A stretch of DNA of 64,000 nt from Rhizobacter sp. SG703 (lineage in GTDB: Bacteria > Pseudomonadota > Gammaproteobacteria > Burkholderiales > Burkholderiaceae_C). The notes beneath the pieces are model-generated. The model was given only the letters and a program-made list of their open reading frames with translations, was not told the DNA's origin and searched no databases. Each line of letters starts with the position of its first letter. Position 1 is the first letter of the stretch. The translations under genes and the position numbers were made by a program. The DNA lies in the NCBI RefSeq assembly GCF_012275445.1, contig NZ_JAAZQK010000003.1:310001-374000 (forward strand), read 5' to 3'. Shown piece by piece: positions 5,869 through 27,285 of the stretch.

Positions 5869-5884
5869 AAAACGCTAGCGTTTT
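5869..5884. promoter_or_regulatory. Perfect 16-bp palindrome, likely operator
   Basis: AAAACGCTAGCGTTTT is its own reverse complement. It ends 17 bp before the GTG start of the ribbon-helix-helix gene, where an autoregulatory operator is expected, and it lies upstream of the whole defence block. Confidence 0.55.
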
Positions 5885-5901
5885 CCATACAGGAGTTCCT
5901 C

Positions 5902-6117
5902 GTGGCCGTCACCAAAACTGAAGTCGTCAGCATCCGCGTCCCGCCGGACGTGAAGGCCGCTCTGGTAGCCGCCGCAGAAAAGGAGCGGCGAAGTCTCGCC
6001 ACCATGGTCGAGGTGATGGTGTTGGAGTACTGCAAAGCTCACGGGGTGGTACAGGGGAGGACGGGAATCGCGCAGTCGCCTCGACGAATCAGAGGCGAAC
6101 GAAAGTCCGTCGCCTAG
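5902..6117 (+). CDS. Ribbon-helix-helix (Arc/CopG-like) regulator
   Basis: 71 aa from GTG 5902, with AGGAG six bases upstream. The strand VVSIRVPPDVKAALV followed by two short helices (AAEKERRSLATMVEVMVLEYC) is the ribbon-helix-helix DNA-binding layout. The tail is short and basic. Proteins of this size usually bind palindromic operators as dimers of dimers and repress their own promoter; the perfect palindrome at 5869-5884 is the obvious candidate site. It is followed after 111 bp by the large helicase gene on the same strand, so it may control the defence block. Control of the block is inference. Confidence 0.72.
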   Translation: MAVTKTEVVSIRVPPDVKAALVAAAEKERRSLATMVEVMVLEYCKAHGVVQGRTGIAQSPRRIRGERKSVA

Positions 6118-6228
6118 CGGACGATGAGTCGAACCAATTCGAGAGCGGGCTGCAGCCGAACTCGACAAGTAACGAGCGCAACGAGAGCGGACGCAGAGCC
6201 GCACTTAAAAAAAATCTGGGGAGCTGGG

Positions 6229-9200
6229 ATGGATGTCTTTAAATTCCGCGAACACATCGTCAACGAGTACGAGCAGTTCACGCGCAGTTTTACGCGCATT
6301 CGTGCCGATGACATTCGCGAACATGTGAACGCCCAGTACGCCAGCCAAAGGTACTGGCCCGAGCCGCTCATCCAAATCAACCCGAACTACAGGTCGGGTG
6401 GCACGGTCGATGAGCTTGTGCAGGCTGGGCAGCTCAGCCCAGAGTGCTCTTCCATCTTCCGTCTGGGAAAGTCAGCAAGTTCTGCCGGTGTCGCGCTGCC
6501 CCTGCACAAGCACCAGGGAGAGGCCATCAGCCTGGCGCTTGCCGGCGAGAGCTATGTGCTGACCACTGGAACGGGCTCGGGCAAGTCCCTCAGCTATTTC
6601 ATCCCGGTCGTCGACGCCTGCCTCAAGGCGAAAAAGGCTGACCCAACACCGCGAACCCGCGCCATCGTCATCTACCCGATGAATGCGTTGGCCAACTCGC
6701 AGCTTGAAGAGTTGAAGAAGTTCCTGGGGTCGGACGCAGCAACTCGCGCCGTGAGCTTTGGCCGTTACACCGGACAGGAGTCCGACGAGGAGCGGCAGGC
6801 CATGGCCGCCAAGCCACCGGACATTCTGCTGACCAACTTCATGATGCTCGAGCTGCTGATGACCCGGCAGAACGACATCGACAAGGCCGTGATGCGCAAC
6901 GCCAAGGGCTTGCGTTTCCTGGTGCTCGACGAACTTCACACCTACCGGGGTCGTCAAGGTGCCGATGTGGCTCTGCTGGTGCGCCGCGTCCGCGAAGCGC
7001 TGGCCGACGAGCTCATCTGCATCGGCACGTCGGCCACGATGGCGTCCGACGGCAGCCAGATGGAGCGCAATGCAGTCGTCGCAAAGGTGGCGCGCCGGCT
7101 GTTCGGCACCCCCATCGCCGACCGAAACGTCATCACCGAGACCCTGCGACGCACGACGCCAGAGAGCCAGACGCTCGAGTCCGTCCGGAATAGCCTGGGC
7201 CCGGCCATCCGGGCTGGTGTCCCAACCGACCTCGACTTCAATGCCTTGGCAGCGCACCCGATGTCGGTCTGGGTCGAATTGACGCTGGGCCTGTCCTACA
7301 AAGACGACAAGCCACAGCGTGCCCGGCCGCGCACGCTGGCCGATGCCGCCAAGCTGCTGCACGAAGCCTCCAGCGAGCCCATCGAACGCTGCCTGGCCTA
7401 CCTGCAGCAGTTCATGCTGCGCGCCTATGCCGTCACCGATGGAGCAGGCAAGAGCCTGTTCGCATTCAAGCTCCATCAGTTCATCGCAGGCGGTGGCAAG
7501 GTCTACACCACGCTGGAAGAGGCTGGGCGCCGTGCCATCACGCTCGATGGTCAGCAGTTCGTTTCAGGTGACGACGACCGGCAACGGCGCTACTACCACG
7601 TGCACTTCTGCCGCGACTGCGGCCAGGAGTACATCCCGGTCTGGGACACGGACGGTCACGAGGGTCGAACCTTCAACGTCCGCAGCATCGAAGAGCGGCA
7701 GAGCGACGACGAGCAGGTCAAGTTCGGCTTCCTGATGCCCGATGGACGCGGTCTCTGGGACCCGGAATCCCTGGAGCGCTATCCAGAGTCTTGGCTTGAG
7801 GAGCGCGCAGACGGCGAGTGGCGCATCAAGTCTGGTCAACGCAAGTTCGTCCCCCAAGCGCTCAAGGTTCGGCCGGACGGCGGGGTCAGCACCGTCAGCG
7901 GCCTGCCAGCTTGGTTCATTCCCGGTGCTTTCCGCTTCTGCCTTGCTTGCGGGGTGTCGCACACGACCTCGGGCAAAGATGCACTGCGCTTGACGTCGCT
8001 GTCGGGCGAAGGCCGCAGCTCGGCGACAACCATGCTCACGTTGTCGGCCTTGCGTTACCTGTACGAACAGGACCAGCAACTGTCTGCGGATGCCAAGAAG
8101 GTTCTTGGCTTCTCCGATAACCGGCAAGATGCCGCGCTGCAGGCGGGTCACTTCAACGATTTCCTGCAGGTGCTGCTGACGCGGTCGGCGCTGCTTTCGG
8201 CGGTGCGTAAGGCGGGTAGTAACGCGCTGTCGGAGAGTGAGGTGGCCAACGCCGTCTTCGAGGCGCTTGGGTTTAACCGCGAAGACCCGTCGGTACGGGC
8301 CGAGTACATGCAGCAACCCGAGGTCAAGGGCAACACGCGGCGGCAAGTGCAGGAGGCCATGCGCGGCATCCTCGGCTACCGCAGCTACTTCGACTTGCGT
8401 CGCGGTTGGCGCTTCAACAACCCCAACCTGGAACAGCTTGGCCTGATTCGCATCGGCTACCAAGACATCGACGACCTGGCGGCGGATGCCTCCGAGTGGG
8501 CCGAGGCGCCACAGGTACTGCAAGCGGCCAACCCGGCCGAGCGGGCCACGGTACTGCGAGCCCTATTTGAATTCATGCGCCAGGGCCTGTGCATTGCCAC
8601 GCGCTACCTCGACCGCACCGAACTTGAACAGCTACGCACCCAAAGCTACGCCAACCTGTGCGAGCCCTGGGGCTTCACCGAAGACGAGCGGCCGGTGCCG
8701 TCCCGTTGGTTTGCTACCTCTCGCCCGCGTGAAGAGACCGACCGCCGGGGTCGCCGCGTACTGGTCGAGGACTTCTTGGTCATCGGCTCCAGCCGCTCGC
8801 GCCTGGGCAAGCTGCTTCGTCAGGGCAGCACGTGGGGCGGCAGCAACCCTTACTACAAGCACATCAACGACCAGACCTATCCGGATGTCATCCAGGCGTT
8901 GCTGAAGGCTGCAGAGTCCTACGGCATGGTCAAGCGCGAGGAGACAGATTTCGGCGTGTTGGGTTGGCAGCTGAACGGCACCGCGTTGCAATGGGAGCTC
9001 GGGTCCGGCGAGAGCAAACGCCAGGCCGAAGACAACGCCTTCTTCCGCAGCCTGTACTTGAACATCGCCGGGCTGCTCGACAGCCCTGTGCATCAGCTCT
9101 TCGAATTCGAGGCCCGCGAGCACACCGCCCAGGTTGAGCAAGACGACCGAATGGAGCGCGAGGCACGCTTCCGCTTCACCGATAAGGACCGCGCGGAATG

Positions 9201-11574
9201 GCGCGGCAAAAACGGCGTCGACCTTGAATGGCTGCCGGTCCTGTTCTGCTCACCCACGATGGAGCTTGGCGTCGACATCTCGTCGCTGAACACCGTCTAC
9301 ATGCGAAACGTGCCGCCCACCCCGGCCAACTACGCCCAGCGCAGCGGCCGTGCCGGGCGTGCAGGGCAACCGGCGTTGGTCATCACGTATTGCGCCAGCC
9401 AGTCGCCGCACGACCAGTACTACTTCCGCGACCCGGTGCGCATGGTGCACGGGCAAGTGAATGCGCCGACGCTCGACTTGGCCAACCTGGAACTGGTCAA
9501 GAGTCACATGCACGCCATCTGGTTGGCCGAGACCGGCAAGCGCCTGGGCAACAGCGTGCGCGACCTGCTGGACATGAACCTGCCGGAGGCTTTGCCTGTG
9601 ACCGAGGAGATGGCCACCGAACTGGACAAACCGGAAGCCAAGAAACGCGCGCATCAACGTGGCCTGAAGGTCCTGGGCATGTTGACCAGCGAACTCACGC
9701 CCCAGAACGCGCCTTGGTACACCGAGCAGTGGGCCGAGACGGTGTTCCAGCGGGCGTATCACGAGTTCGGCGGAGCCCTCCAGCGCTGGCGTGACCTGTA
9801 CCGCGCCACAGCGCAAGCCATTGAGCTGAACTTCAAGATTGAAAACAACCCGGCTGCCAGTGAGCGTGAGCGCCGCGAGGCCCAGCAGCGCCACAACGAA
9901 GCTCGCAAGCAGCGCGACCTGCTTCTGGCTGGTGACAGCGCCTTTAACAGCGACTTTTACACCTACCGCTACCTGGCCAGCCAAGGCTTCCTGCCGGGCT
10001 ACAACTTCCCGCGCTTGCCGCTGTTGGCCTACTTGCCTGCGCGGCGCGGCTCCATTGGCCGCGAGAGCTTTCTGTCGCGCCCGCGATTCCTGGCGCTGGG
10101 CGAGTTCGGCCCTTACAGCCTCATCTATCACGAGGGCAGCCAGTACCGCGTTATCAAAGCGCTGCTGACCATCACGGGTTCAGACCAGGTCAGTGAAGGC
10201 GCCAAGCTGCCCACCGAGATTGCTCGCCTGTGCCCGGCTTGCGGCTATGGGCACTTCCGCTCGCAGCGCGATGCCGACCGCTGTGTGTCCTGCGGTGCCT
10301 CGCTGTCCGGAGCCCAGGAAATCAAGAACCTGTACCGTATCGAAAACGTCTCGACCAAACGCGCCGAACGCATCACAGCCAACGAGGAGGAGCGGGTGCG
10401 CCAGGGTTACGAGATGCAGACCACGCTGCAGTTCGCCCTGGCCGAAGGCAAGTTGCAGATGGTCACCACGGTGGTCGAGGACGACCAGGGGCCGCTGCTT
10501 GAAATGCAGTACGGTCCAGCGGCAACCGTCTGGCGCATGAATTTCGGTTGGCGTCGGCGCAAAGAGAAGTCCATCCAGGGATTCATGATGAATCCTGTGA
10601 CGGGCCACTGGGTAGGCGGTGTCGACGACGGCAATGGAGAGAAGGAGGGCGAAGCGGAGGCACCGCCGGACAAGACACCACCACAGCGCATCGTCCCCTA
10701 CGTCGAAGACCGGCGGAACATTCTCATCGTGCGCCCGCACTACCGCCTGGGCGAACTCTCGGCCGACACGCTGACCACCCTGCAGTACGCGCTCAAGCGC
10801 GGCATTGAAGCGGTCTACCAGCTCGAAGAGAGCGAGTTGATGGCCGAGCCGCTGCCCACGCGCGACAACCGCCAGTCCATCCTTCTGTTCGAGGCTGCCG
10901 AAGGCGGTGCGGGCGTGCTGACTCGCCTGGCCACCGAGCCTGACGCTTTAGCAGCCGTTGCTGCGAAGGCCCTCGAGGTTCTGCACTTCATGCCTCCTTC
11001 GACCGGCCAGGTTTGGTCCAAAAAGACGCTGACCGAAGAGCTCGACCACGACGGCAAGCCCTTGTGCGAGGCCGGCTGCTACCGCTGCCTGCTGTCGTAC
11101 TACAACCAACCCGACCACACTCTCATCGACCGCAAGGACAAAGATGCCGGTGGACTCTTGCTCGACATCCTGTGCCGCCTGACGCAGGCGCGTGCCCATC
11201 AAGGAACACAAGGGAGGGAGCCTGTCGAGCACGATGCGCAACTCGCGCGCACCGCGGGCAGCTCACTCGAACAGGCCTGGCTGGACCACGTGAATGAGCA
11301 GGGCTATCGCAAGCCCGACCGTGGGCAGCACACGGTCGTTCTCGGCGCGGCCGGCGCTAAGGCCTCCGCCGACTTCTTCTACGACGACCTGAACCTCGCC
11401 GTCTTCATCGACGGTCCGCATCACGAAGCCGATGCCCAACGCGCGAAGGATGGTGCCATCGACCGCTCGCTCGACGAGCTGGGTGTTTTGGTGGTGCGCT
11501 TCCCCAAGGAGGCGGCTCGCTGGCCAGACATCTTCAAGAACAACGCCGACCTCTTTGGTCCTGGCAAGCCCTGA
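6229..11574 (+). CDS. DISARM-type (DrmA/DrmB-like) YprA family helicase with DUF1998 and C-terminal nuclease-like domain
   Basis: 1781 aa from ATG 6229, chosen because GGGGAG precedes it; ATG 6124 is an upstream alternative. Superfamily 2 motifs: TGTGSGKS (Lys119), DELH 234-237, SAT 268-270, and QRSGRAGRAG 1037-1046. Several CxxC pairs (FCRDC, FCLAC, LCPAC, CVSC) suggest zinc sites. Near the end is the DUF1998/MrfA zinc-binding signature with Cys1613, Cys1617 and Cys1620. In DISARM the helicase (DrmA) and DUF1998 (DrmB) are separate proteins; here they are one chain, as in YprA/MrfA. The last 100 residues (Asp1715, VFIDG at 1725-1729, closing VLVVRFP) resemble a DUF559/Vsr-like nuclease. Six bases separate it from the next gene. 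Confidence 0.85.
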   Translation: MDVFKFREHIVNEYEQFTRSFTRIRADDIREHVNAQYASQRYWPEPLIQINPNYRSGGTVDELVQAGQLSPECSSIFRLGKSASSAGVALPLHKHQGEAISLALAGESYVLTTGTGSGKSLSYFIPVVDACLKAKKADPTPRTRAIVIYPMNALANSQLEELKKFLGSDAATRAVSFGRYTGQESDEERQAMAAKPPDILLTNFMMLELLMTRQNDIDKAVMRNAKGLRFLVLDELHTYRGRQGADVALLVRRVREALADELICIGTSATMASDGSQMERNAVVAKVARRLFGTPIADRNVITETLRRTTPESQTLESVRNSLGPAIRAGVPTDLDFNALAAHPMSVWVELTLGLSYKDDKPQRARPRTLADAAKLLHEASSEPIERCLAYLQQFMLRAYAVTDGAGKSLFAFKLHQFIAGGGKVYTTLEEAGRRAITLDGQQFVSGDDDRQRRYYHVHFCRDCGQEYIPVWDTDGHEGRTFNVRSIEERQSDDEQVKFGFLMPDGRGLWDPESLERYPESWLEERADGEWRIKSGQRKFVPQALKVRPDGGVSTVSGLPAWFIPGAFRFCLACGVSHTTSGKDALRLTSLSGEGRSSATTMLTLSALRYLYEQDQQLSADAKKVLGFSDNRQDAALQAGHFNDFLQVLLTRSALLSAVRKAGSNALSESEVANAVFEALGFNREDPSVRAEYMQQPEVKGNTRRQVQEAMRGILGYRSYFDLRRGWRFNNPNLEQLGLIRIGYQDIDDLAADASEWAEAPQVLQAANPAERATVLRALFEFMRQGLCIATRYLDRTELEQLRTQSYANLCEPWGFTEDERPVPSRWFATSRPREETDRRGRRVLVEDFLVIGSSRSRLGKLLRQGSTWGGSNPYYKHINDQTYPDVIQALLKAAESYGMVKREETDFGVLGWQLNGTALQWELGSGESKRQAEDNAFFRSLYLNIAGLLDSPVHQLFEFEAREHTAQVEQDDRMEREARFRFTDKDRAEWRGKNGVDLEWLPVLFCSPTMELGVDISSLNTVYMRNVPPTPANYAQRSGRAGRAGQPALVITYCASQSPHDQYYFRDPVRMVHGQVNAPTLDLANLELVKSHMHAIWLAETGKRLGNSVRDLLDMNLPEALPVTEEMATELDKPEAKKRAHQRGLKVLGMLTSELTPQNAPWYTEQWAETVFQRAYHEFGGALQRWRDLYRATAQAIELNFKIENNPAASERERREAQQRHNEARKQRDLLLAGDSAFNSDFYTYRYLASQGFLPGYNFPRLPLLAYLPARRGSIGRESFLSRPRFLALGEFGPYSLIYHEGSQYRVIKALLTITGSDQVSEGAKLPTEIARLCPACGYGHFRSQRDADRCVSCGASLSGAQEIKNLYRIENVSTKRAERITANEEERVRQGYEMQTTLQFALAEGKLQMVTTVVEDDQGPLLEMQYGPAATVWRMNFGWRRRKEKSIQGFMMNPVTGHWVGGVDDGNGEKEGEAEAPPDKTPPQRIVPYVEDRRNILIVRPHYRLGELSADTLTTLQYALKRGIEAVYQLEESELMAEPLPTRDNRQSILLFEAAEGGAGVLTRLATEPDALAAVAAKALEVLHFMPPSTGQVWSKKTLTEELDHDGKPLCEAGCYRCLLSYYNQPDHTLIDRKDKDAGGLLLDILCRLTQARAHQGTQGREPVEHDAQLARTAGSSLEQAWLDHVNEQGYRKPDRGQHTVVLGAAGAKASADFFYDDLNLAVFIDGPHHEADAQRAKDGAIDRSLDELGVLVVRFPKEAARWPDIFKNNADLFGPGKP

Positions 11575-11580
11575 TACGAC

Positions 11581-14433
11581 ATGAATGCCCCTACGCCGGA
11601 ATTCCTTCCGGGCAGCCTCGTCGCGGCCCGTGGTCGTGAATGGATAGTGCTGCCCGAGTCAGACACCGAAACGCTGCGCTTGCGCTCCTTGGGCGGTGGT
11701 GAACGGGACGAAACCCTCATCTACCTGCCACTTGAGCGCCAGCCTGTCCAGCCAGCTACCTTTCCTTGGCCGAACATCGCGCAAGCTCGCAACCACGCGG
11801 CCAGTCAGCTGCTACTCGACGCACTGCAACTCAAGCTGCGCAGCGGTGCGGGTCCCTTCCGCAGCTTCGGCAACATAGCCATCGAACCCCGCGCCTACCA
11901 GCTGGTGCCATTGCTGATGGCGCTCAAGCAGCCCACGGTGCGCTTGCTGGTCGCCGACGACGTGGGCGTTGGCAAGACCATCGAAGGTGCCCTCATCGCC
12001 CGCGAGCTGCTTGACCGCGGCGAAATTCAGAGAATGACGGTGTTGTGCCCGCCACACCTGTGCGAGCAGTGGCAGCGCGAGCTCTCCGAGCGCTTCCATA
12101 TTCAAGCAGCGGTGGTCCGGTCAAACTCGGCCGACCGATTGGAGCGAGACCTCCCGCCCGGCACCTCGCTGTTCCATGCCCACCCGTTCACCGTCGTCAG
12201 CCTCGACTACATCAAGTCAGAGCGCCGCCGCGAAACCTTCCAGCGCTCCTGTCCAGAGTTCGTCATCGTCGATGAGGCCCACACGTGCACCCAGGCCGGT
12301 CAGGGTCGGCAGCAGCGCTACCAACTGCTCAAGGGTCTGGCCGCGCAGCCCGAGCGACACCTGGTGCTGCTGACCGCAACGCCGCACAGCGGCGACGATG
12401 AGGCCTTCTTCAACCTGCTCGGCCTGCTGCGCGCTGACTTCACCCAGCTCAAGGACCTGCCCGTTGGCCAACGCACTGACCTGCGCGAAGACCTGTCGCG
12501 CCACTTCGTCCAGCGCCGCCGGCCCGACATCGCCGAGTGGCAAGACACGTCGATGTTCCCCGACCGCCGCACCGCTGAGCTGACCTACAAGCTCACCGGC
12601 GCGTGGGGCCAGCTGTTCAACGACGTGCTGGCCTACGCGCGCGAGTTGGTCGAACGCTCCGAAGGCCAGGGCCTGCGCGAGCAGCGCATGAACTGGTGGG
12701 CGGCACTGGCCCTTTTGCGCTGCATCTCCTCGTCGCCGGCAGCCGCCGTCAACGCACTGCGCACGCGCCTGATGGGCGCGCAAGGTGAAGCCGAAACAGA
12801 TGACACCGCTTCGCTTGAAGAATTCGAAGCCACGGCCAGCGACCGCGTGCTCGACGGCACCGACGACGCGCTGTCCACCGACGACATCGAGCCCGGTGCG
12901 CAGACCGAGGACAGCCAACGCCTCAAGGTACTGATGGTCAGCGCTGCTGCGTTGGCTGGCCAGCAGAACGACCCCAAGCTCGCCAAACTGCAGGAGCACT
13001 TGGCACTGCTGCTGAAGGACGGCTTCCAGCCGGTTGTTTTCTGTCGCTACATTGCCACCGCGCATTACTTGGCGGCAGCGCTGCAAGAGAAGTTCAAGTC
13101 GGTCATGGTCAAGGCCGTGACCGGAGAGCTGACGCCGGACGAGCGCGAAGCCGCAGTCGAACAGCTGGGCGAGAGCGAAACCCGTGTCCTCGTCGCCACG
13201 GACTGCCTCTCCGAGGGCATCAACCTGCAAGGCCTCTTCACTGCCGTCGTCCATTACGACCTGAGTTGGAACCCGACCCGCCATGAGCAGCGCGAAGGCC
13301 GAGTTGACCGTTTCGGCCAGAAGGCGCGCGAAGTGCGCAGCACTATGCTGTATGGCGAGGACAACCCTGTCGATGGCGCCGTGTTGCATGTCATCCTGCG
13401 CAAGGCCGAGAGCATCCGCAAAGAGCTGGGCGTACTGGTCCCTATGCCCGACAACGAAGGCAAGCTGACCCAGGCGCTCATGAATGCCGTGCTGCTGCGC
13501 AAGGGCAGCGCGACGACTTACCAAGCCGAACTCGACCTCTGGGGTGAACCTGCCAAGGAAATCGACCTCGCCTGGCAGAGCGCCAAGGAAAAGGCCAAGC
13601 AGAACCGCAGCATCTTCGCCCAGCGCCGCCTGAAGCCCGAAGACGTGCTGCCGGAGTGGCGCAAGTCTGCCGTCTCGCTCGGTGGTGAAGCTGATGTTGA
13701 GCGCTTTGTCAGCCGCGCTGCCGCCCAACTTGGGGCGCCCCTTCAGCCAGTGAAGCACTATTTCAAGCTGCTCACCGAGCATCTGCCCGCTGCCGTTCGT
13801 GAGCGCCTGGCGGCTGAGGGTATGGCGGGCACTCTGCGCATCGACTTCAAGCAGCTTGCCGCGCAAGGCGCTGCCTTTGTTCACCGCACCCACCCGCTGG
13901 TGGCTGTGCTGGCCGACACGCTGCTAGAGCAAGCACTGGACGATGCACCGAGCAACGCCGACGACGCCCAAGTCGCGCGTGCCGGCGTCGCGTTTGTGGG
14001 TCGGGTTTCGCTGAAGACCACCGTGCTGCTGCTGCGCATCCGGCATCAACTGACGGTCACGCATGGCACCAACTCACGGCTTTTGATGTGCGAAGAGGCC
14101 GTTGCTGTCTCGGCCAGCGGTGCCGAGCCCTTCGCTGAATTGCTGCCTGACCAGACCCGTGCCCTGCTGGGTGCCGAAGCTACCCGCAATCTGCCCGTGC
14201 CGCTGCGCGACCGACAGTTGCAGTCCGCGCTCGACGCCTTGCCATCCTGGCAACCGCAGCTCGAAGCCATCGCCAAAGCTCGTGCCCAGGCCTTGCTGCA
14301 GGACCACCGCCGCGTGCGTGAGGCAGCCGACAGCCGCGGCAGCTACCAGGTCACCGCCAGCCTGCCGGTAGATGTGATGGGTCTTTACGTGCTGCTGCCG
14401 GATACGGCAGCCACCACCTCCATGGGAGCCTGA
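11581..14433 (+). CDS. SNF2-family helicase, DrmD-like
   Basis: 950 aa. Walker A VGVGKT (Lys132), DEAH at 231-234, LLTATPHSGDDE (motif III), ATDCLSEGINLQ (motif V) and QREGRVDRFGQ from 570 (motif VI) define a complete Snf2/RapA-type ATPase. Size and motif details fit DrmD, the extra helicase of class 1 DISARM, and the DEAD/SNF2 helicase of helicase-methylase-ATPase systems. The gene begins six bases after the previous stop and ends four bases before the methyltransferase, so co-translation is likely. The C-terminal third is helical without recognised domains. The enzyme probably moves along duplex DNA and remodels or unwinds unmodified DNA. Confidence 0.85.
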   Translation: MNAPTPEFLPGSLVAARGREWIVLPESDTETLRLRSLGGGERDETLIYLPLERQPVQPATFPWPNIAQARNHAASQLLLDALQLKLRSGAGPFRSFGNIAIEPRAYQLVPLLMALKQPTVRLLVADDVGVGKTIEGALIARELLDRGEIQRMTVLCPPHLCEQWQRELSERFHIQAAVVRSNSADRLERDLPPGTSLFHAHPFTVVSLDYIKSERRRETFQRSCPEFVIVDEAHTCTQAGQGRQQRYQLLKGLAAQPERHLVLLTATPHSGDDEAFFNLLGLLRADFTQLKDLPVGQRTDLREDLSRHFVQRRRPDIAEWQDTSMFPDRRTAELTYKLTGAWGQLFNDVLAYARELVERSEGQGLREQRMNWWAALALLRCISSSPAAAVNALRTRLMGAQGEAETDDTASLEEFEATASDRVLDGTDDALSTDDIEPGAQTEDSQRLKVLMVSAAALAGQQNDPKLAKLQEHLALLLKDGFQPVVFCRYIATAHYLAAALQEKFKSVMVKAVTGELTPDEREAAVEQLGESETRVLVATDCLSEGINLQGLFTAVVHYDLSWNPTRHEQREGRVDRFGQKAREVRSTMLYGEDNPVDGAVLHVILRKAESIRKELGVLVPMPDNEGKLTQALMNAVLLRKGSATTYQAELDLWGEPAKEIDLAWQSAKEKAKQNRSIFAQRRLKPEDVLPEWRKSAVSLGGEADVERFVSRAAAQLGAPLQPVKHYFKLLTEHLPAAVRERLAAEGMAGTLRIDFKQLAAQGAAFVHRTHPLVAVLADTLLEQALDDAPSNADDAQVARAGVAFVGRVSLKTTVLLLRIRHQLTVTHGTNSRLLMCEEAVAVSASGAEPFAELLPDQTRALLGAEATRNLPVPLRDRQLQSALDALPSWQPQLEAIAKARAQALLQDHRRVREAADSRGSYQVTASLPVDVMGLYVLLPDTAATTSMGA

Positions 14434-14437
14434 CACC

Positions 14438-19468: not shown

Positions 19469-19477
19469 GGGGGAGCG

Positions 19478-21466
19478 ATGGCAACCTGGCTCAAGGCATA
19501 TGAACGGGTTCGCGCTCAACCTAGGCTCTGGGTCGAGACCCTGTGGCTCGTCGAATCCCGTGAACCGCTTGTGTTCACGCGCACCATCGAATTGCACGCC
19601 GGGCTGAACATCGTTTGGGCCAAGGAGTCCACCTCGAGCGAGGCCTCGGGCTTGTCAAGCGCAGGTCATGGGGTCGGCAAGACGTCGTTGTGCCTGCTGC
19701 TGAGATATGTCCTGGGTGACGATGCCCCGGCCATCGCCACTCTGCGCGGCAAGGCCGCTGGGAGCTTCCCCAAAGGCGGGGTGGCTGTGAAGGTCCATGT
19801 GGACGGCGCCGTCTGGCTGGTCTTCCGACCGTATGGCGCGTACAGCCACTCCATGGCTGCCCGATGCGACGCGTTAGAGCAACTGCTCCAGGGAACGGCG
19901 GCGAACGACTTCAGAGGCTACAGCGACGCGCTGGAGCAGTTCTCTATTGGTCGCCTTGCGGCCCGGTCTCTGCCAGGAACAAATCAAGCGCTTGAGTGGC
20001 GCCATCTGCTGGCCTGGTGCATTCGGGAGCAACGAACTCGCTTTGACGGTTTCTACCACTGGCGCGAGGGCGAAGGCCTGGGCTTCAAGCGGTCACGTCG
20101 CGACCCGCCGCTGTTGGTCGGCTCGGTGCTGGGCCTGGTAGACCTGGAGTTGGACAGGCTGCTGCGTGACATCGAGGCCAAGCAGAAACAGCTCGAAGAA
20201 TGCAAGGAGGGCATTCCTGAACTCGAACGGGCACCTGCCTTTGCGTTAGTCCACGCCGAGCGCCAACTGCGTTTGCGGGTGCGAGCGGAAGATGACGAGC
20301 CCGTCTTCATGACCACGGTCGGCGAGTCCGTCGAGTCACGTGTTCAAGACGCCTTGCAAGCTGCCGAACGGGACGAGCGCGGATGGGAGCGCGACGTGGA
20401 GCAGGCAGAAGATGCCCTGGCAAAGGCGCAGCTCCACCTGCATGAGCTGACCAAGGCCCAGGCACTGGCGGAACTCGCGGTGGGCATCGCCAAGTCCCTG
20501 GTCGATGCGAACCAAGCGGACTTCGAGCGGCTGACCAAGGTTCGGGACCAACTGGAAGGCCTTGAGGGGCGATGCGACCACGGAAATGTCGAGTTCAACG
20601 AGTGCCAGCACATCCAGGAACGTAAGAGCGCGGTCAACATGACGTGGTTTCAGGACGGTCGACAGGCCAAGGCAACGGCACCGGAGCTGGCTGCACGCTA
20701 CGAGGCTCGGACGGTGGAGTTCGAAAGGCTCGTGAAGGCCAAGTCCGACCAAGTGCAGCGCATCTCCGAGAAGAAAGTGGAATTGCGCCGGTTGCGAGTC
20801 CGTGTCGCCACAAGTGAGAGCACGCGAGCGTTGTTGAAGCAGTCTTGGGACCAGCTTCAGGTGCAGCACACGCAAAGGGCCCAGGGCGGCGATACAGCTG
20901 AACTGGTCGAGGCGCGGAAGCGACTCCAAGAGTTCGAGACGGCGTTGAGTTCCCTCCGAGCCGCCGAGGTCAGTCGAAGGTCTCAGCAGTCGTCGAGAGT
21001 GGATGCCATCAAGACCCTGACTGCCGCCGTCTCGACCAGACTCCTTGGTGCAGCAGGACACGCGCGGTTTGTGCGAGGACACGAGGTTCGTCCCTTCGAG
21101 GTTGCACGTGGCGGTGAGGCCTACCAGGTTCTAGAAGTGCTGCTTGGCGACATCGTGTGCCTGCTCGACTCCGCCGTGTCGGATGTCAGCAACCACCCGG
21201 GCTTCCTGGTTCATGACTGCCCGAGAGAAGCCGACATGAGCGAGCGTCTGTATCGGGAGTTCTTCCTCGCAGCGGCAGAAGCTGCGGAGCAACTTTCCAA
21301 GGATGGCGCTGTGCCGTTTCAGTTCATTGTGACGACGACCTCGTCGCCACCTGACAAGCTATCGGCGGCGCCTCACGTCGTCCTAGAACTAGCTCCGGGC
21401 GCAGACCAAGCGCTCCTATTCAAACGGCAACTGGCGCCGGAACTGCCAGGTTTCGATTCGGCGTGA
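19478..21466 (+). CDS. Coiled-coil (DUF2326-like/SMC-type) ATPase of the defence block
   Basis: 662 aa from ATG 19478, with GGGGGAG upstream. Walker A GHGVGKTS at 63-70 (Lys68), and a late FLVHDCPRE segment (Asp580) that matches the Walker B area of DUF2326 proteins. Between them are two long charged helical stretches (about 215-365 and 395-540) expected to fold as an antiparallel coiled coil. At the turn is a Cys366-x-His368-x7-Cys376-x-His378 cluster that could bind a metal like a Rad50 hook. It completes a helicase-methylase-ATPase set (compare the Hma systems). Nine bases separate it from the methyltransferase. Role as a DNA-end sensor or clamp is inference. Confidence 0.72.
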   Translation: MATWLKAYERVRAQPRLWVETLWLVESREPLVFTRTIELHAGLNIVWAKESTSSEASGLSSAGHGVGKTSLCLLLRYVLGDDAPAIATLRGKAAGSFPKGGVAVKVHVDGAVWLVFRPYGAYSHSMAARCDALEQLLQGTAANDFRGYSDALEQFSIGRLAARSLPGTNQALEWRHLLAWCIREQRTRFDGFYHWREGEGLGFKRSRRDPPLLVGSVLGLVDLELDRLLRDIEAKQKQLEECKEGIPELERAPAFALVHAERQLRLRVRAEDDEPVFMTTVGESVESRVQDALQAAERDERGWERDVEQAEDALAKAQLHLHELTKAQALAELAVGIAKSLVDANQADFERLTKVRDQLEGLEGRCDHGNVEFNECQHIQERKSAVNMTWFQDGRQAKATAPELAARYEARTVEFERLVKAKSDQVQRISEKKVELRRLRVRVATSESTRALLKQSWDQLQVQHTQRAQGGDTAELVEARKRLQEFETALSSLRAAEVSRRSQQSSRVDAIKTLTAAVSTRLLGAAGHARFVRGHEVRPFEVARGGEAYQVLEVLLGDIVCLLDSAVSDVSNHPGFLVHDCPREADMSERLYREFFLAAAEAAEQLSKDGAVPFQFIVTTTSSPPDKLSAAPHVVLELAPGADQALLFKRQLAPELPGFDSA

Positions 21467-21527
21467 ACGTCAACTGCCGCGAGCGAACTTCGCGAGCAGA
21501 CCAAGCCAAGTCTGAAAGGGGAACAGA

Positions 21528-24500
21528 GTGTCGGTTGTCAAAGAAGAATACCAAGACCTTCCACCAAGAGGCGAGAAGCTCGCCGATGTGGTCGTTCTCG
21601 CGCAAGCTTGGAAGAAGTCGCATACCTTCATCCGCCGACACAACTGGTACGCGGACGTGCTCGAACTGGACGCATCGACTGTCGACCTGGAGGACCGCTT
21701 GGTGCGCTGGGCCTCGGAAGTCAGTCAGGAGGGTTTTCGACCACAGGAAATGATGCTCGTCCCGGCACCGAAGAATGCTCGTTGGACGTTCCGGCCGGCG
21801 CCTACCATCACGTCGTTCGACGACCTCCTAAATGTCGACCTTGACAGCCTGGGTTCCGAGGCGACCTTTGACGACTGGGGTCCAAGACCATCGGCGCAAA
21901 GCGAGCCATTGATGTCGGGTGGTAGGGCCGCCGCTCCGCTGCAGAAGCTGCGCCCGCTGGCCCACCTTTCCATCCGTGACCAGACCTTGGCCACCGCAGC
22001 GATGATGTGCTTGGCCGAAGCCGTGGAGTCAGCGCAGGGGGACACGACGGGAACTGACGTCCTGGCAATGCGCGCTCAAGGCGTGGTGAGCTACGGCAAT
22101 CGTCTGCAATGCTCTTGGGAGACGAGGCCCAACACACGACCTCGGGCGAAGTTCTCATGGGGCAATAGTCGAACCTATCGTCAGTATTTCCAGGACTACC
22201 GGACGTTCTTGGCGCGTCCGCGACGGGTCTGTGCGGAACTCATGCCGCAACTTGGTACTCGGCGCGAACTTTTCGTGGTGTCGCTCGATATCAAATCGTT
22301 CTTCGACCGAGTGGACCGAAGCGCGCTGCTGAACGAATTGCGCGGGGCGGAACAAGAGCATCGAACTGTGCACGGCTTGCCGGACCGTCTTTCCGCCGAC
22401 GATGTATTCTGGCAGCGCTTGGCTCGCGTTTTCGACTGGCAATGGCGGAACGATGACCACCAGCTGGCCGAATTGACAGGCGGCGACGGTCAGGGCCAGC
22501 TCGAGCTTGGTTTGCCGCAAGGGCTGGTGGCATCTGGGTTCCTGTCAAACGCTTATCTGATTCGGTTTGACCGCGACCTGCATCTGGCTGCGACACAGGG
22601 TGCCAATGTCGGCGACGACGTCCGGTTGCTGGACTATTGCCGCTACGTGGACGACATGCGATTGGTTGTCGAGGCCCGGAGTGGCCCGGGTGGGCTGGGG
22701 CAAAGCGCCGTGTTGGCCCATGTCCAGGAGTACGTGAAGAACGTGCTGAGCGCCCACTGCGAACGCATCGGCGCTCAGCGGGCCTTGGAACTGTCGCCCG
22801 ACAAGTCTGTCGTGACCCCGTACCGTGCGATTTCTGCTCAAAGTCACATGTCGGCTTTGATGGAGATGCTAAACGCGGAACTGAGTGGAACTTTCGACCT
22901 TGAGTCGCTGGCCCAGGCGGCAGGGGGATTAGACGGCATGCTCTGGATGTCGGAGCAAATTGAAGGCGCTGACGAACCCAGGCCGTCACGCCTGGGACTG
23001 GCAACCGTGGCTGTGCCAAACACTGATGTGCGGGACGACACGGTTAAACGCTTCGTCGCAACGCGCCTTGCTCAGCTAATGCGCCATCGCCTCGCGATGA
23101 CAGACACCGAAAGTCGGGCGGGGGCCGAAGAGTCGCTCAGCGAGCGCATAACACAAGGCATGGTTTTGTCGCACGAGTTCGAGTCGACCGCGCGAAAGCT
23201 CATTAAGTGTTGGGCGGAGAACCCAGCCCTCGTGCTGCTTCTGCGATGCGGCTTGGACCTGTTTCCTCATCCGCGCCTGCTCGCTCCAGTGGCCGAGGCT
23301 TTGGGCGTCAAACTCTTTTCGCCGCCGCAGGCCCCGGATTCTGCGCAGAAGCGAGAGGTCAAGGTGGCCGAGTACGTCGTTGCAGACCTCCTGCGCGCTG
23401 GAGCCGTTGAGACCGGTTTCCGCGACTCCGAGGAGTATCCGGAGGCAGTCGACATTGCTGGATACCGAGAAGACTTGGGGTCACTGGCTCGGAGAGTGCT
23501 GAACGAACGCATGGATTCGCCGTGGTACCTCCGCCAGCAGGCTCGTCTGTACTTGGCTTCCATCGGAGACGTGTCGCTTGCAGTGACGACCGAGCACGCT
23601 GCACCGCTCCAGCCCTATGTGGCGCTTCAACGCGCCGCGATGTATGAGCCGGTTCAAGACAGTGACTTGAAAAGTGTCATGCCTTTGGCGCTCGTGGCGC
23701 AGCAACTCCATCCCAACGCTCGAAGGTTTGGCGCATGGTTGGCGGACGGTCTCCGACGCACCGCCTCGGAGACAACGCAGGCTGAGGTTGTGCGAACCGT
23801 CGCGCTAAACCGGCCCGAGTTAGTGCTGGCCGCATTGCATGGACGCAAGGCGCCTGCATGGCGCCAGTTTGTTCCCCGCGCGCTGGTGGAGTCGGGGCGG
23901 CGGCCAGGCTCTTCGCGCCGGGCCGTGGGGGCGGGCAGGAAGGTTCGGCCTCTTCTGCAACTCATGAACGAGCCAGACAATCTGTTCGGCCAGGAGAATG
24001 GTTTGCTGATGTTGGCCGCGGCCTTGCTACGGCACCCTGGCATCGAAGCTCATCTTTCGTCTGCCCTGACCGCCAATGACATCGTGCTGCGGTGCGAGGA
24101 TTGGTCGCGCATCCATGCGATGCCAGGGCCTGACAACTTCCTTTCGATTGAGTCGATTGTGCCAAGCGACTCGGCAAACCCCTTGTATGCGAACCCGCCG
24201 TGGGTGGCCGAGGCGAGCGCGTGGCTGTACGGACTCGGGCGAATTCTGCGCGCGGCCCTGACCGGGGAGTTTGATTTCACTAGCCGCCGCTTTCTGGTCA
24301 CTGAAGAGGTGGGGAGGTACACGGGCCTGAGAAGCACGTGGTTCAAGCGCCGATTCGGTCTGTTGAATTCCGGACGAGGGCTGCTAGACGAGCCGGGGCC
24401 GGTGTCGCCGTGGGTGTCGGGATTGTTGTCCACCCTATTGCAATGGCCCGGCGTTGAGTTCCGGGCCAACGATGCTGCCGCTGCCGGCACTGCGCGAACG

Positions 24501-25505
24501 GCCGGGGAACTGCTGGCTCTGTTTGAACAGCGCATCGCGGTGCAGCGTGCACTGTATGGCAGCCGAAGCAACACGCCGATGTACGTGGTGCCGGTTGATG
24601 ACCGCGCACCATTACAGGACCGACCGTTGCGTGTGGCCATAGTCCAGCCGATGCGGCCTCGACGTGATGAATTTGATGTCAAGGACCCGACACATTGGAC
24701 GCCAGGGGTGCTTGCCGAACATCGACGTCATTTGGCAGAGGTTTGCCGATTGACGCACCAGAAGCTGAAGACCTGGGCATCCGCAGGGGCTGCCGGGTCA
24801 TTCGATTCGGACGATGGAGGTCCCGTTGTCGATGTCGTCCTCTTCCCGGAATTGGCCGTTCACCCTGAACATACCTTTCTGTTGAGGAGGCTGGCGGACA
24901 ACCTACGGGCCAGCATATTCACCGGCCTGACCTTCCTTCACTCGGCCAAGGCTGGCGGCACCGTGAACCAAGGTTTGTGGCTCATCCGAACCGAGTCTAC
25001 TGCGCATGGACGCAGCTTTCAATACGTTTGGCAAGGCAAGCTCCATCCGATGAAGTTGGAAGCCAAAATGGGTGTCAAGGGCTACCGCCCTCATCTGACG
25101 TTGGTAGAACTGCCTATCGGAGCGAAGACGCGGACACGAATTGCGGCCGCCATCTGTTACGACGCCACTGACCTTGACCTTGTCGCAGACCTCCGCGACC
25201 GGTCAGACATGTTCATGGTTGCTGCCCTGAACCAAGACGTGCAGACCTTCGACAACATGATTGCGGCGTTGCACTTTCACATGTACCAGCCGGTGGTGTT
25301 GGCCAATTCTGGGGAGTTCGGAGGGTCCACGGCGCAAGTTCCTCTGCCGAAGCACGAGCGCCTCATTGCTCATGTGCATGGGGGCCACCAAGTTGCCGTG
25401 AGCGTTTTCGAAGTTGACCCGTCGCTGTTCAAGTCCACGGCACCCGCCAAGGTCGGCAAGGAACTGAAAGCGCCGCCTGCCGGCTACAAGGGGCGGCCAT
25501 TGTGA
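21528..25505 (+). CDS. Reverse transcriptase-nitrilase fusion (DRT type 1 / UG1-like)
   Basis: 1325 aa from GTG 21528, with AAAGGGG upstream. The reverse transcriptase core is intact: SLDIKSFFDR (Asp254), LPQG from 329 and YVDD at 373-376. A helical region of about 650 residues follows. The C-terminal nitrilase/carbon-nitrogen hydrolase domain has its full triad: Glu1108 in FPELAVH, Lys1171 in QGKLHP and Cys1210 in ICYDATD. Fusion of an unknown-group RT to a nitrilase is the hallmark of defence-associated RT type 1. It follows the ATPase after 61 bp on the same strand and may be translated from the same message. The nitrilase substrate and any template RNA are unknown. Confidence 0.88.
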   Translation: MSVVKEEYQDLPPRGEKLADVVVLAQAWKKSHTFIRRHNWYADVLELDASTVDLEDRLVRWASEVSQEGFRPQEMMLVPAPKNARWTFRPAPTITSFDDLLNVDLDSLGSEATFDDWGPRPSAQSEPLMSGGRAAAPLQKLRPLAHLSIRDQTLATAAMMCLAEAVESAQGDTTGTDVLAMRAQGVVSYGNRLQCSWETRPNTRPRAKFSWGNSRTYRQYFQDYRTFLARPRRVCAELMPQLGTRRELFVVSLDIKSFFDRVDRSALLNELRGAEQEHRTVHGLPDRLSADDVFWQRLARVFDWQWRNDDHQLAELTGGDGQGQLELGLPQGLVASGFLSNAYLIRFDRDLHLAATQGANVGDDVRLLDYCRYVDDMRLVVEARSGPGGLGQSAVLAHVQEYVKNVLSAHCERIGAQRALELSPDKSVVTPYRAISAQSHMSALMEMLNAELSGTFDLESLAQAAGGLDGMLWMSEQIEGADEPRPSRLGLATVAVPNTDVRDDTVKRFVATRLAQLMRHRLAMTDTESRAGAEESLSERITQGMVLSHEFESTARKLIKCWAENPALVLLLRCGLDLFPHPRLLAPVAEALGVKLFSPPQAPDSAQKREVKVAEYVVADLLRAGAVETGFRDSEEYPEAVDIAGYREDLGSLARRVLNERMDSPWYLRQQARLYLASIGDVSLAVTTEHAAPLQPYVALQRAAMYEPVQDSDLKSVMPLALVAQQLHPNARRFGAWLADGLRRTASETTQAEVVRTVALNRPELVLAALHGRKAPAWRQFVPRALVESGRRPGSSRRAVGAGRKVRPLLQLMNEPDNLFGQENGLLMLAAALLRHPGIEAHLSSALTANDIVLRCEDWSRIHAMPGPDNFLSIESIVPSDSANPLYANPPWVAEASAWLYGLGRILRAALTGEFDFTSRRFLVTEEVGRYTGLRSTWFKRRFGLLNSGRGLLDEPGPVSPWVSGLLSTLLQWPGVEFRANDAAAAGTARTAGELLALFEQRIAVQRALYGSRSNTPMYVVPVDDRAPLQDRPLRVAIVQPMRPRRDEFDVKDPTHWTPGVLAEHRRHLAEVCRLTHQKLKTWASAGAAGSFDSDDGGPVVDVVLFPELAVHPEHTFLLRRLADNLRASIFTGLTFLHSAKAGGTVNQGLWLIRTESTAHGRSFQYVWQGKLHPMKLEAKMGVKGYRPHLTLVELPIGAKTRTRIAAAICYDATDLDLVADLRDRSDMFMVAALNQDVQTFDNMIAALHFHMYQPVVLANSGEFGGSTAQVPLPKHERLIAHVHGGHQVAVSVFEVDPSLFKSTAPAKVGKELKAPPAGYKGRPL

Positions 25506-25540
25506 TTCCGAGTGCTTGGTTGAAAAGAGATTCGACACCT

Positions 25541-25632
25541 ATGACCGACGCACTGTTCAATGAAGTCCGCTACACTTCAGCGGGCTCATAAACGACATTG
25601 AACTTGGCCGAATCGGCTTGCCCGATATTGCT
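25541..25632 (+). pseudogene. Remnant of a DUF262 (GmrSD-type) gene start
   Basis: ATG 25541 begins MTDALFNEVRYTSAG and hits a stop after two more codons. The next frame then reads LINDIELGRIGLPDI. Joined by a one-base frameshift this is the standard N-terminus of DUF262 proteins, which normally continue with QRPFVW. Here the frame ends where the HNH gene begins. About 30 codons survive of a gene of several hundred, so a GmrSD-like nuclease was lost at this place. Confidence 0.55.
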
Positions 25633-25634
25633 GC

Positions 25635-26357
25635 ATGACTCCGCTCGACCGGCTCCGCATCGAAAAGGCTGCGGCGGACTGTGGCTTTGAGATGACGCCG
25701 ACTGAGCATGGCGACGGTCTAAAACTCAGGTCGGCCACGTTCCCTGAGTCGATTTTGGTCCGTTCGGTTGGTCTGTCGACCTTCGAGGTCACAGCCGCAA
25801 ATGCGCTCATGGTGGACGCCCCCGATGGCACCGCTGCGGTCGAGGTGCAGGGCTATGGAGCTCTGTACGACGTACTGAGAACCGCTGCAGCGCACGCTCG
25901 GACGCTGCCCAACCGTGTTGCCGACGCCTTTCGTCGTGACACTGCAGGCATGCCGCGTTCCACCGAAGCAGAGCGCTTAGTTGTTCAGCGTGTTGGTCAG
26001 AATTTGTTCCGTTCGGCGTTGCTCGACTATTGGCAGGGCCAGTGCTGCGTCACTGGTCTTGACGTTCCGGAGCTTCTGCGTGCTTCGCACATCAAACCCT
26101 GGGCGTCATGCGACGGCGATGATGAGCGGCTCGACGTGTTCAATGGGTTGCTGCTCGCACCCCATGTAGACGCACTGTTCGATGGCGGCTGGGTTTCCTT
26201 TGCGGACGATGGACGCGTCTTGGTCTCGGACGCGTTGCTCGGTGAGGCGCAAGCACGGCTCTCGGTGTCGACGCACTGGTGTGCGAAGCTCCTTAGGCCA
26301 GAGCACTGCCAGTACCTCGCATTTCACAGGCTCCATCAATTTCGTCGGTCTCGTTGA
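25635..26357 (+). CDS. HNH endonuclease
   Basis: 240 aa. The C-terminal half carries a complete HNH nuclease of the restriction-associated type: RSALLDYWQGQCCVTG, ASHIKPW (His152), DVFNGLLLAPHVDALFD (Asn170, His177) and ISF-like strands after it. The N-terminal 100 residues are a family-specific domain, probably for DNA recognition. ATG 25635 overlaps the end of a decayed DUF262 reading frame. Lying downstream of the RT-nitrilase and 27 bp before the HEPN gene, it may be part of the defence block or an independent restriction enzyme, such as a type IV-like one. Confidence 0.85.
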   Translation: MTPLDRLRIEKAAADCGFEMTPTEHGDGLKLRSATFPESILVRSVGLSTFEVTAANALMVDAPDGTAAVEVQGYGALYDVLRTAAAHARTLPNRVADAFRRDTAGMPRSTEAERLVVQRVGQNLFRSALLDYWQGQCCVTGLDVPELLRASHIKPWASCDGDDERLDVFNGLLLAPHVDALFDGGWVSFADDGRVLVSDALLGEAQARLSVSTHWCAKLLRPEHCQYLAFHRLHQFRRSR

Positions 26358-26384
26358 CCAAACAGTTTAGAAGGAGCCCCACGG

Positions 26385-27233
26385 TTGGCCGATAGCTCAC
26401 GCCCCGAACTTCAACGCGACGTTCAGCGCTTGATGGGCCGTTGCCTGCTACGCCTCCAGCAATACGAGCGCCTCATGAAGGCGATGCTTGCTCACCAAGA
26501 GCTCGGCGGTCCCATGGACCAACTTGAAGCGCAACGGGCGGCTCGTGTCGAGAAGTTTTCGGACAAGAGCCTCGGGACGCTGGTCAAGGCGCTGTTCGAG
26601 AACTACGTTGTCGTTAAGGGTACCGAGAAGCCCGTGCTGGACGATGCAAAGATTCCGACAGACCGAATTTCGATGAGCTTCCAGTTCCGTATGGAGATGG
26701 CAGAGGAGCGGCGTGCCGAGGTGAAGGCCGCCATCGACGACCTCGTGCTCATGCGCAACGAACTTGTCCACCACCTCATCGAGCGTTTTGATGTCTGGAC
26801 GGATGTAGGGTGCGTCGCCGCGGTGGAGCACCTCAACCGGAGCTACGAGCGCATCGACCGCCACTATGAGGAGTTGCGCAAGTGGGCCGAGAGCATGGAC
26901 GATGCCCGCACCCATGCAACATCTTTCGCGCAGAGCGAGGTGTTTCTGGACATGGTGCTCAACGGCATCGCGCCGGATGGAACGTCTGACTGGCCACACA
27001 CAGGTATCGTCCGCGTGCTACGTGAGGCTGCAAGGGCGAGCGCAGCCGCCGGAGGTTGGACTAAGTTGGCTGACGCTACGGCCTGGATAGCCGAGCACCA
27101 CCCCGAGCAAATGCCGCACAGATACGGCTGCAGGTCATGGCCTCAGGTGCTGAGCGAGTCGAGGAGCTTTCGGCTTGAATACCGGTATACCGATAGCGGC
27201 CAACGAGTGCCGTGGTACCGAGTGCTCGCGTAG
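26385..27233 (+). CDS. HEPN-like / OST-HTH (LOTUS) domain protein
   Basis: 282 aa from TTG 26385, with GAAGGAG upstream. Residues 1-190 are all-helical and include LMRNELVHHLIERFD. Arg124 and His129 give the R-x4-H signature of HEPN ribonucleases. Residues about 217-282 (GWTKLADATAWI, then HPEQMPHRYGCRSWPQVL, then a YR.TDSGQ strand pair) match the OST-HTH/LOTUS fold, which binds RNA. The combination suggests an RNA-targeting effector. It is the last gene of the block and is followed 52 bp later by a strong hairpin. Catalytic activity is inferred from the motif only. Confidence 0.68.
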   Translation: MADSSRPELQRDVQRLMGRCLLRLQQYERLMKAMLAHQELGGPMDQLEAQRAARVEKFSDKSLGTLVKALFENYVVVKGTEKPVLDDAKIPTDRISMSFQFRMEMAEERRAEVKAAIDDLVLMRNELVHHLIERFDVWTDVGCVAAVEHLNRSYERIDRHYEELRKWAESMDDARTHATSFAQSEVFLDMVLNGIAPDGTSDWPHTGIVRVLREAARASAAAGGWTKLADATAWIAEHHPEQMPHRYGCRSWPQVLSESRSFRLEYRYTDSGQRVPWYRVLA

Positions 27234-27285
27234 CGTTGCGGCTTGCTGGACTGTCTTGCTGTACGCCACCGCGCTCCGATAAAGA

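Follow-up and report, generated by a model that had tools for sequence, protein, structure and literature searches.

What is a reverse transcriptase doing in the midst of a string of helicase, methylase and ATPase genes? The question is raised by a 64,000-nucleotide stretch of the genome of Rhizobacter sp. SG703 (assembly GCF_012275445.1, contig NZ_JAAZQK010000003.1, positions 310,001 to 374,000), the whole of which is called here the window. A block of it, at about 5902-27233, encodes on the + strand a small ribbon-helix-helix (RHH) protein, two helicases (g1 and g2), a methylase (g3), an SMC-like ATPase (g4), a reverse transcriptase (RT) fused to a nitrilase (g5), an HNH endonuclease (g6) and an OST-HTH protein (g7). 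An earlier note, made from the sequence alone, counted eight same-strand genes with spacings of 6, 4, 9, 61, 129 and 27 bp, which the coordinates confirm, and took them for one functional unit.

I propose instead that the block is, very probably, an extended ARMADA Type I defence system, composed of g1 through g4 together with g6, that possesses an exchangeable slot between g4 and g6, and that the RT-nitrilase, a DRT type 1 (DRT1), is a guest in that slot. Comparison of related loci brings out the gene content, the conservation of its order, the slot and its turnover, and the window itself retains the remnant of another guest.

A variable junction in a conserved operon

The slot lies at 21467-25634 (+ strand) in the window and was defined by counting inserts across 95 related systems: 80 loci from genome contigs, 14 more from genomes and plasmids, and the window itself. 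G449 and G444 were dropped as duplicates of L076 and L103; the junction count leaves out L022, L023, L024 and G452, while G430 was counted and dropped out for no SMC match. Inserts of at least 700 bp were found at 1 of 74 g1-g2 junctions, 12 of 79 g2-g3 junctions, 1 of 88 g3-g4 junctions and 28 of 58 g4-g6 junctions (Fisher p of 2e-11, 5e-5 and 8e-13 for g4-g6 against the other junctions, with loci treated as independent). If only the 58 systems possessing g4 as well as g6 are counted, the figures are 1/53, 5/54 and 0/56, compared to 28/58 at g4-g6. That junction is either short, less than 500 bp in 30 of the 58, or holds 0.9-8.7 kb, in 28. The earlier note judged the grouping of the genes to exceed chance, and in this it was right: relatives keep the short junctions, and variation falls on the one with the RT in it.

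What fills the slot? DRT1 is found there in ten systems (the window, G454, L074, where it is split, L076, L077, L079, L083, L093, L101, where it is in pieces, and L104) and full-length GmrSD of one family in seven (G400, L066, L072, L073, L076, L078 and L079). Hachiman HamAB lies in the slot of G400, Mokosh MkoAB in that of L066, PDC-S39 in those of L065, L066 and L071, and PDC-M65AB in that of L109. A HEC-03AB-like pair plus an RNA ligase is present in L097, L111, L120 and L121, HEPN-RES in G433, L078 and L089, an AlbA-type Schlafen protein in L089 and L093, and Lit protease along with another GmrSD in L138. An 888-aa UvrD-like protein is found in L102, L109 and L110, and short open reading frames (ORFs) in L084. 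In 25 of the 28 filled slots a gene clearly matches some defence family, known or candidate, either directly or by way of a blastp cluster; one or two members per cluster were scanned and the rest identified by blastp clustering or tblastn. The guests that could be assigned are all on the operon strand, and there are matches to the models HEC-03, HEC-05 and HEC-06 (HEC being Hma-embedded candidate, in the accessible text of its source). In each such case a foreign defence module lies between core genes of another system. Used as a trap, the slot offers the 888-aa UvrD-like protein, a 377-aa ORF in L101 and the short ORFs of L084, none of them yet assigned, as ranked candidates for new defence genes.

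Two side observations belong here. In L074 (Polaromonas) three minus-strand ORFs at 13033-16278, perhaps an insertion sequence, split the slot DRT1, which is continuous in the close relative L083. At the g2-g3 junction, inserts in L105, L108, L112 and L103 contain an ORF that looks by eye like AlbA/Schlafen or an AAA ATPase, and L159:26728-27362 is annotated as VapBC.

The probable guest and its relatives

The guest in the window, g5 (21528-25505, + strand), was assigned to DRT type 1 in the earlier note, and the assignment stands. PADLOC matches it to Drt1a with E=0, and it matches the DRT1 structure 9yfd at 3e-152, YVDD aligned to YVDD; D324 and D325 of that structure are its active residues, according to the accessible part of PMC13275509. 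The nitrilase cysteine, C1210, is conserved in at least 90% of the DRT1 alignment (A2). The marks of the type, a UG1 RT, a C-terminal nitrilase, catalytic aspartates and the nitrilase cysteine, are all present. The same source, so far as its text is available, describes DRT1 as a single-gene system that synthesizes DNA on itself without a template, whose nitrilase lies dormant in filaments, and which on its own protects E. coli by abortive infection. In domains and active residues g5 is no different, but it sits within another operon.

DRT1 is rare. In a sample of the order it is found in 4 of 369 genomes, two of them with DRT1 in the slot (Rhizobacter sp. SG703 itself and G1005, which shares an identical SMC piece with L077), and a class-wide search with the Drt1a profile at E 1e-60 gave 1 of 369, SG703 only. 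A sample of the phylum gave DRT1 matches in 12 of 398 genomes, of which 7, SG703 included, carry the RT and 5 only the nitrilase part. Rare as DRT1 is in the order, its association with the core is specific and recurrent.

Do the guests move from one slot to another? A tree was made of 21 DRT1s, 8 of them intact and from slots and 13 free (those of L074 and L101, broken or split, and that of L150, a copy of L077, were dropped). Viral contigs had yielded two DRT1 and three SMC loci; both DRT1s entered the tree, and L155 was compared. The eight slot DRT1s make up two clades, against 6.7 changes with shuffled labels, and a single slot clade is rejected (AU p 0.0007, by a test named after the tree had been seen). 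Transfer from slot to slot is likely, though short of proven since the sample of free DRT1s is small. Behind each of the free ones in the marine loci L146, L147 and L149 comes a small hypothetical ORF, about 140-170 aa long, that could be the membrane partner drt1b mentioned in the accessible part of PMC13275509; L146 also has an annotated HNH gene close by, which does not match g6.

Turnover of the slot

A tree of the SMC-like protein from 57 systems (29 with empty slots, 18 with other cargo and 10 with DRT1, L143 having been dropped for its truncated SMC), built by a quick method with one model and with long branches flagged, calls for 21 changes in the state of the slot, 8 for DRT1 alone. 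Well-supported branches by themselves force 12 changes for emptiness and 8 for DRT1. Pairs of loci give the same impression at closer range. G400 belongs to the same genus as the window, its core proteins are 73-90% identical (g1 90%) and its DNA is 82% identical over 10.8 kb, yet it has Hachiman and GmrSD in its slot, and blastn over the 33 kb compared finds no match outside the core and HNH. Similarity of DNA breaks off 127 bp (G400) or 13 bp (G454) short of where the SMC gene ends and restarts inside the HNH gene. L065 has the SMC nearest to that of the window on the tree (85%), but PDC-S39 in its slot. The SMC of G454 is 80% identical and its DRT1 only 38%, while for L093 the values are 35% and 52%.

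The window bears the trace of a different guest: at 25541-25629 (+ strand), just before HNH, is what is left of the beginning of a GmrSD (DUF262) gene, its frame broken. With the intact GmrSD from the slot of L072 as query, tblastn matches 22 aa at 25570-25629 (77%, E=5e-4), the only place in the 64 kb that matches GmrSD queries below E 0.1 (the next is at 0.62); the part at 25541-25569, in another frame, was recognized by eye. GmrSD remnants lie just before HNH also in G454, L104 and L065, larger in these three, and one lies before DRT1 in L077. To judge by these sequences, the slot of the window was once occupied by a GmrSD gene.

The core as a probable ARMADA Type I

ARMADA Type I is described in the accessible text of a 2025 preprint (PMC12458937) as a YprA homologue, a BrxHII-like helicase and a PglX-like methylase, in that order, the YprA homologues being closest to those of Druantia and having a C-terminal Vsr-type nuclease. 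How well do g1 to g3 fit? The first, g1 (6229-11574, + strand), is predicted to be a YprA-type DEAD helicase with an MZB/DUF1998 region and a C-terminal Vsr/DUF559-like nuclease. Pfam finds DEAD, Helicase_C and MZB; the best PADLOC profile is DruE1 (2.9e-92), and the seven top PADLOC matches are all DruE models, so that by profile score DruE is the closest relative. The ORF opens at 6124, and 6229 is the most likely start, since the alignments with homologues begin at residue 33-37 and the DNA becomes identical to that of two close relatives from 6228-6230 onward.

The pattern DF.Y..[IV]DG..H is present in the C-terminus of g1, and its residues DF.Y, D and H, along with V.RF, are invariant in 20 g1 sequences, a set chosen for carrying the nuclease domain. 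A structural model of this region (pLDDT 84) gives no Foldseek match at 0.001, only weak ones; the nearest among unrelated matches, at E 0.03-0.1, are PvuRts1I, AbaSI and I-Bth0305I, which I take to be Vsr-like nucleases. Those g1 proteins in which the motif is missing (20 of 57) keep their length; some may have an inactive nuclease, as in Druantia Types I/II, and some may be misread frames.

The second gene, g2 (11581-14433, + strand), is predicted to encode an SNF2/RapA-type helicase, BrxHII/DrmD/DpdE-like: PADLOC places DpdE (4e-210) ahead of DrmD (2e-89), and NCBIfam DISARM_DrmD scores 337 bits, below its cut-off of 610. The third, g3 (14438-19468, + strand), appears to be a PglX/DrmMI-like adenine-N6 methyltransferase, type IIG-like, by Eco57I (Pfam, 3.9e-14) and DrmMI (PADLOC, 9.6e-65) and by motifs DPACGSG and NPPW, found by eye in the translation. 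Among the labels DrmD, DrmMI and DUF1998 helicase given in the earlier note, DrmMI agrees with the scores of g3 (DrmMI/Eco57I), whereas g1 scores best as DruE and g2 as DpdE before DrmD. In order and in predicted domains, g1 to g3 fit ARMADA Type I: YprA-type first and DruE-like by best match, with a possible Vsr-like C-terminal nuclease, weakly matched here, then BrxHII-like, then PglX-like. The locus differs in its SMC-like ATPase, its HNH and the cargo slot between them. The main text of PMC12458937, so far as it is accessible, has no mention of SMC, HNH in one reference title only, and no cargo within the system, and its supplementary tables may list SMC or HNH neighbours.

SMC and HNH as core genes of a subgroup

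The protein encoded by g4 (19478-21466, + strand) finds no Pfam match at 0.01 and none in NCBIfam, and its complete PADLOC list at 0.01 consists of LmuB models, all weak. A Walker A motif (GHGxGK) and HDxPREA are invariant across 32 aligned sequences. Its AlphaFold model (pLDDT 86.5) has the head and coiled coil of an SMC/Rad50-like ATPase, and Foldseek relates it to YydD (2e-15, itself a model), Lamassu LmuB (9e-14) and Rad50 (1e-6); a profile search of PDB returned coiled-coil proteins and weak DUF3732 matches. Residues 366 and 376 are two cysteines ten apart, invariant in 32 SMC sequences and lying in a low-confidence loop between the arms, possibly a zinc hook.

What company does this protein keep? 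Scanning genome contigs with the g4 alignment gave 264 loci. Among the best 80, which were used, a methylase lies upstream of SMC in 73, and of the remaining seven, four have no more than 1.5 kb upstream on the contig, one is a truncated SMC match and two (L126 and L128) truly lack the methylase there. An HNH homologue lies downstream of SMC in 48 of the 80. In the window this is g6 (25635-26357, + strand; HNH_2 at 7e-13), the last core gene, found downstream of g4 or of cargo in 58 of the 95 systems; its sole NCBIfam match is the model of a phosphorothioated-DNA restriction enzyme, at 30 bits where the cut-off is 180. The earlier note, counting five large genes, overlooked g6 as part of the core and left it out of its title.

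Plasmids tell a similar story. Of ten plasmid records that cover at least 95% of g6, nine are also among the 60 g1 matches listed. Eight plasmid records match SMC, of which all but H4 and H6 were examined: L013, L014 and L015 have YprA helicase, helicase, methylase, SMC and HNH in that order, L018 (unannotated) has SMC then HNH, and L016 and L017 lack HNH. Five ARMADA plasmids were reached through g1. In L161 and L159 HNH directly follows the methylase and SMC finds no match, L162 shows neither SMC nor HNH, and L160 is cut short. On this comparative evidence, a subgroup of ARMADA Type I has g4 and g6 among its core genes. The fifth, L158, from Acinetobacter soli, has an ARMADA operon without an SMC match, in which a set annotated like the HEC-03 trio (AAA ATPase and DUF3696, 30125-32782) precedes HNH; the cargo site may therefore be defined by HNH alone.

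Known systems compared

Could the locus be a system already described? The earlier note pointed to DISARM and to Hma. DISARM is rejected: MZB/DUF1998 is fused in g1, with no separate DrmB, whereas in DISARM DrmB is a gene of its own. Hma does share the plan of helicase, methylase and ATPase genes in one operon with further defence genes inside it, but its ATPase, HmaC, is a DUF499 protein (PMC12839542, accessible text), whereas g4 is SMC-like with LmuB alone in its PADLOC list, and this label too is rejected. ARMADA Type II, made up of BrxHII, PglX, YprA and a RelE-GajB-like helicase, does not fit, the YprA gene being first here and g4 SMC-like. Druantia is rejected as the best label because the neighbours of g1 are a methylase, a RapA-type helicase and SMC; none of the Druantia partners (DruH in Type III) is among the PADLOC matches listed. 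Lamassu shares the LmuB fold of g4, but g4 is within a helicase-methylase operon, and neither LmuA nor LmuC is among the listed matches of the eight proteins.

Defence genes embedded in Hma are reportedly the subject of a 2024 preprint by Payne. They are cited in PMC12988326 and PMC12255303, and cases in which Hma, type I restriction-modification or BREX-type systems contain embedded defence genes or effectors appear in PMC12255303, PMC12988326, PMC12629846 and PMC12839542, in the parts accessible. The type I restriction-modification system with DarTG2 between hsdS and hsdR (PMC12255303, same limit) resembles the present case in having a second system at a fixed site between core genes, but the core genes are unrelated. 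Titles and abstract openings among the literature matches listed report no cargo inside ARMADA.

How the system might work, and what else it might be

From this arrangement I infer the following biochemical steps, co-transcription and layered effect. The methylase g3 would probably mark the DNA of the cell, and the two helicases, with the C-terminal nuclease, would translocate on and cut incoming DNA that is not so marked, sparing the cell. A core defence that is not suicidal is proposed because ARMADA Type II, the type for which anti-phage activity has been shown, protects without cell death and requires all four of its genes (PMC12458937, accessible text). The SMC-like ATPase would probably recognize DNA ends or replication structures and so license the HNH nuclease, whose gene adjoins g4 and which would be its natural effector; sensing of DNA structure is suggested by the LmuB-like fold of the g4 model. 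The slot, in which defence modules are received, lost and swapped, would probably be transcribed with the operon. DRT1 within it would be a one-gene abortive-infection system, and since the slot holds such a system, the operon would carry a suicidal second line behind a direct first one. A bolder version, rather unlikely to my mind, makes the system a chassis with the exchange position built in between the SMC-like sensor and the HNH nuclease; the guests would spread from slot to slot as a gene pool of their own, each coupled to the core as a replaceable second line that goes into action once the SMC sensor signals failure of the helicases and nuclease.

The earlier note would have DRT1 a functional subunit of the helicase-methylase-ATPase machine. 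The guest does take up that one position time and again, in 10 of 58 systems, and its eight intact slot forms fall into two clades only, as if adapted to the slot. A fixed composite nonetheless fails because the core lacks DRT1 in 48 of 58 systems and other modules take the slot, an outcome that undoes the idea of a single unit by the note's own reckoning. Thirty of the 58 slots are empty; G400 in the same genus, with g1 90% identical, has Hachiman and GmrSD instead; DRT1 works alone in E. coli (PMC13275509, accessible part); and it lies outside the slot in 6 of the 7 RT-bearing genomes of the phylum sample. I consider the composite very improbable. What survives of the co-occurrence proposed in the note is that g1-g4 and g6 recur as a unit, with DRT1 recurring beside them but not as a fixed member.

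Defence genes cluster in general, and the RT might have arrived in an ordinary defence island by chance, with no special slot, as the lower G+C content of the stretch and an integrase near its left end would suggest. This is hardly credible, for inserts concentrate at one junction among five conserved genes, the assignable guests share the strand of the operon, and pieces of earlier guests lie beside HNH in several systems. Might HNH, then, be the agent of exchange rather than an antiviral effector, cutting alleles that lack the slot in the style of a homing endonuclease? It does stand at the fixed edge of the slot, and slot DRT1s look to have been swapped between slots. HNH is present also behind empty slots (30 of 58), however, and behind a methylase without SMC (L159 and L161), and its only NCBIfam match, low as the score is, is to a restriction enzyme model. 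That role for HNH seems to me quite unlikely.

An ARMADA Type I system with an exchangeable slot thus remains the preferred explanation, and a number of observations weigh against it. Every one of the 95 systems was reached by way of the SMC gene or because it is a close relative, and close pairs are included. Inserts greater than about 4 kb at g2-g3 and g3-g4 are invisible to the junction script, although few such inserts can be hidden since only 2 of the 58 systems lack g3 and 4 lack g2. The g2-g3 junction is a second, weaker insertion point; 4 of its 12 inserts (L114, L123, L130 and L136) amount to the N-terminus of the methylase failing to align. In the slots of L102 and L110 the UvrD-like gene, a weak match, stands alone, and the contents of the L084 slot match no family. 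Shuffled labels on the SMC tree average 23.9 changes, and 22 of 200 shuffles need as few as 21; the state of the slot is thus near random with respect to the core, and the exact number of events is unsure because slot states are scattered almost as in the shuffles.

The core has its own difficulties. No HNH was shown at 32 of the 80 SMC loci, in part because the contig ends, and L158, L159, L161 and L162 have no SMC match, so SMC marks only a subgroup of ARMADA Type I. The g1 nuclease motif is found in 37 of 57 readable C-termini, the window included, and is absent from 20, and matches to the nuclease are weak (3hrl, hidden Markov model E 0.073). As to DRT1, the six other RT-bearing genomes of the phylum sample have no g4 or g6 in the flanks (up to 1.5 kb, with contig ends nearer in G153 and G097), two of the four DRT1 genomes in the order sample have it outside the slot, and ten plasmid records match DRT1, four of them at full length, and around these four nothing within 5 kb matches g1-g4 or g6.

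If the explanation holds, two conserved genes are added to a defence family of the 2025 preprint, and the site where that family swaps other defence systems is located. A single locus would then make it testable whether nested systems are coupled or merely share a promoter.

Neighbours and setting

The gene at 26385-27233 (+ strand), g7, was called a HEPN/OST-HTH protein in the earlier note and counted as part of the block. The OST-HTH/LOTUS domain is there (1.2e-6); the HEPN part rests on a motif, RNxLVH, invariant in six aligned sequences including that of the window, and there is no Pfam HEPN match. Membership in the system is rejected: g7 is found in 6 of 100 relatives, SG703 included, and the other five have no core genes in 1.5-kb flanks. 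No homologue occurs at the ARMADA loci examined; homologues lie near genes of integrating elements (L163) and on a large plasmid (L164). By these comparisons g7 is probably a neighbour, and it is a candidate RNase in its own right. A 13-bp hairpin 3' of it (27286-27315, no strand assigned), found by hairpin scan, is a possible terminator.

At the other end, the RHH gene (5902-6117, + strand) is a possible regulator of the operon (RHH_1 at E=5e-4 and 20.3 bits, just short of the 20.5 cut-off); a longer ORF, 5725-6117, is listed, and 5902 is an internal GTG. Its protein has tblastn matches (34-42%) immediately 5' of the core in G400 and G454. Sigma-70-like sites on the + strand were absent from 19300-27300 and equally from 5400-6500 ahead of the operon, so the promoter scan says little. 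An Rfam scan of positions 1-33000 of the window gave nothing at gathering scores. Around the block the G+C content is 58-67%, compared to about 70-76% beyond 36 kb, and an integrase (342-2228) is close to the left end of this lower-G+C stretch. Besides the integrase, which has DUF6538, that end (342-5597) carries a DUF429 gene and a pair of unassigned minus-strand ORFs.

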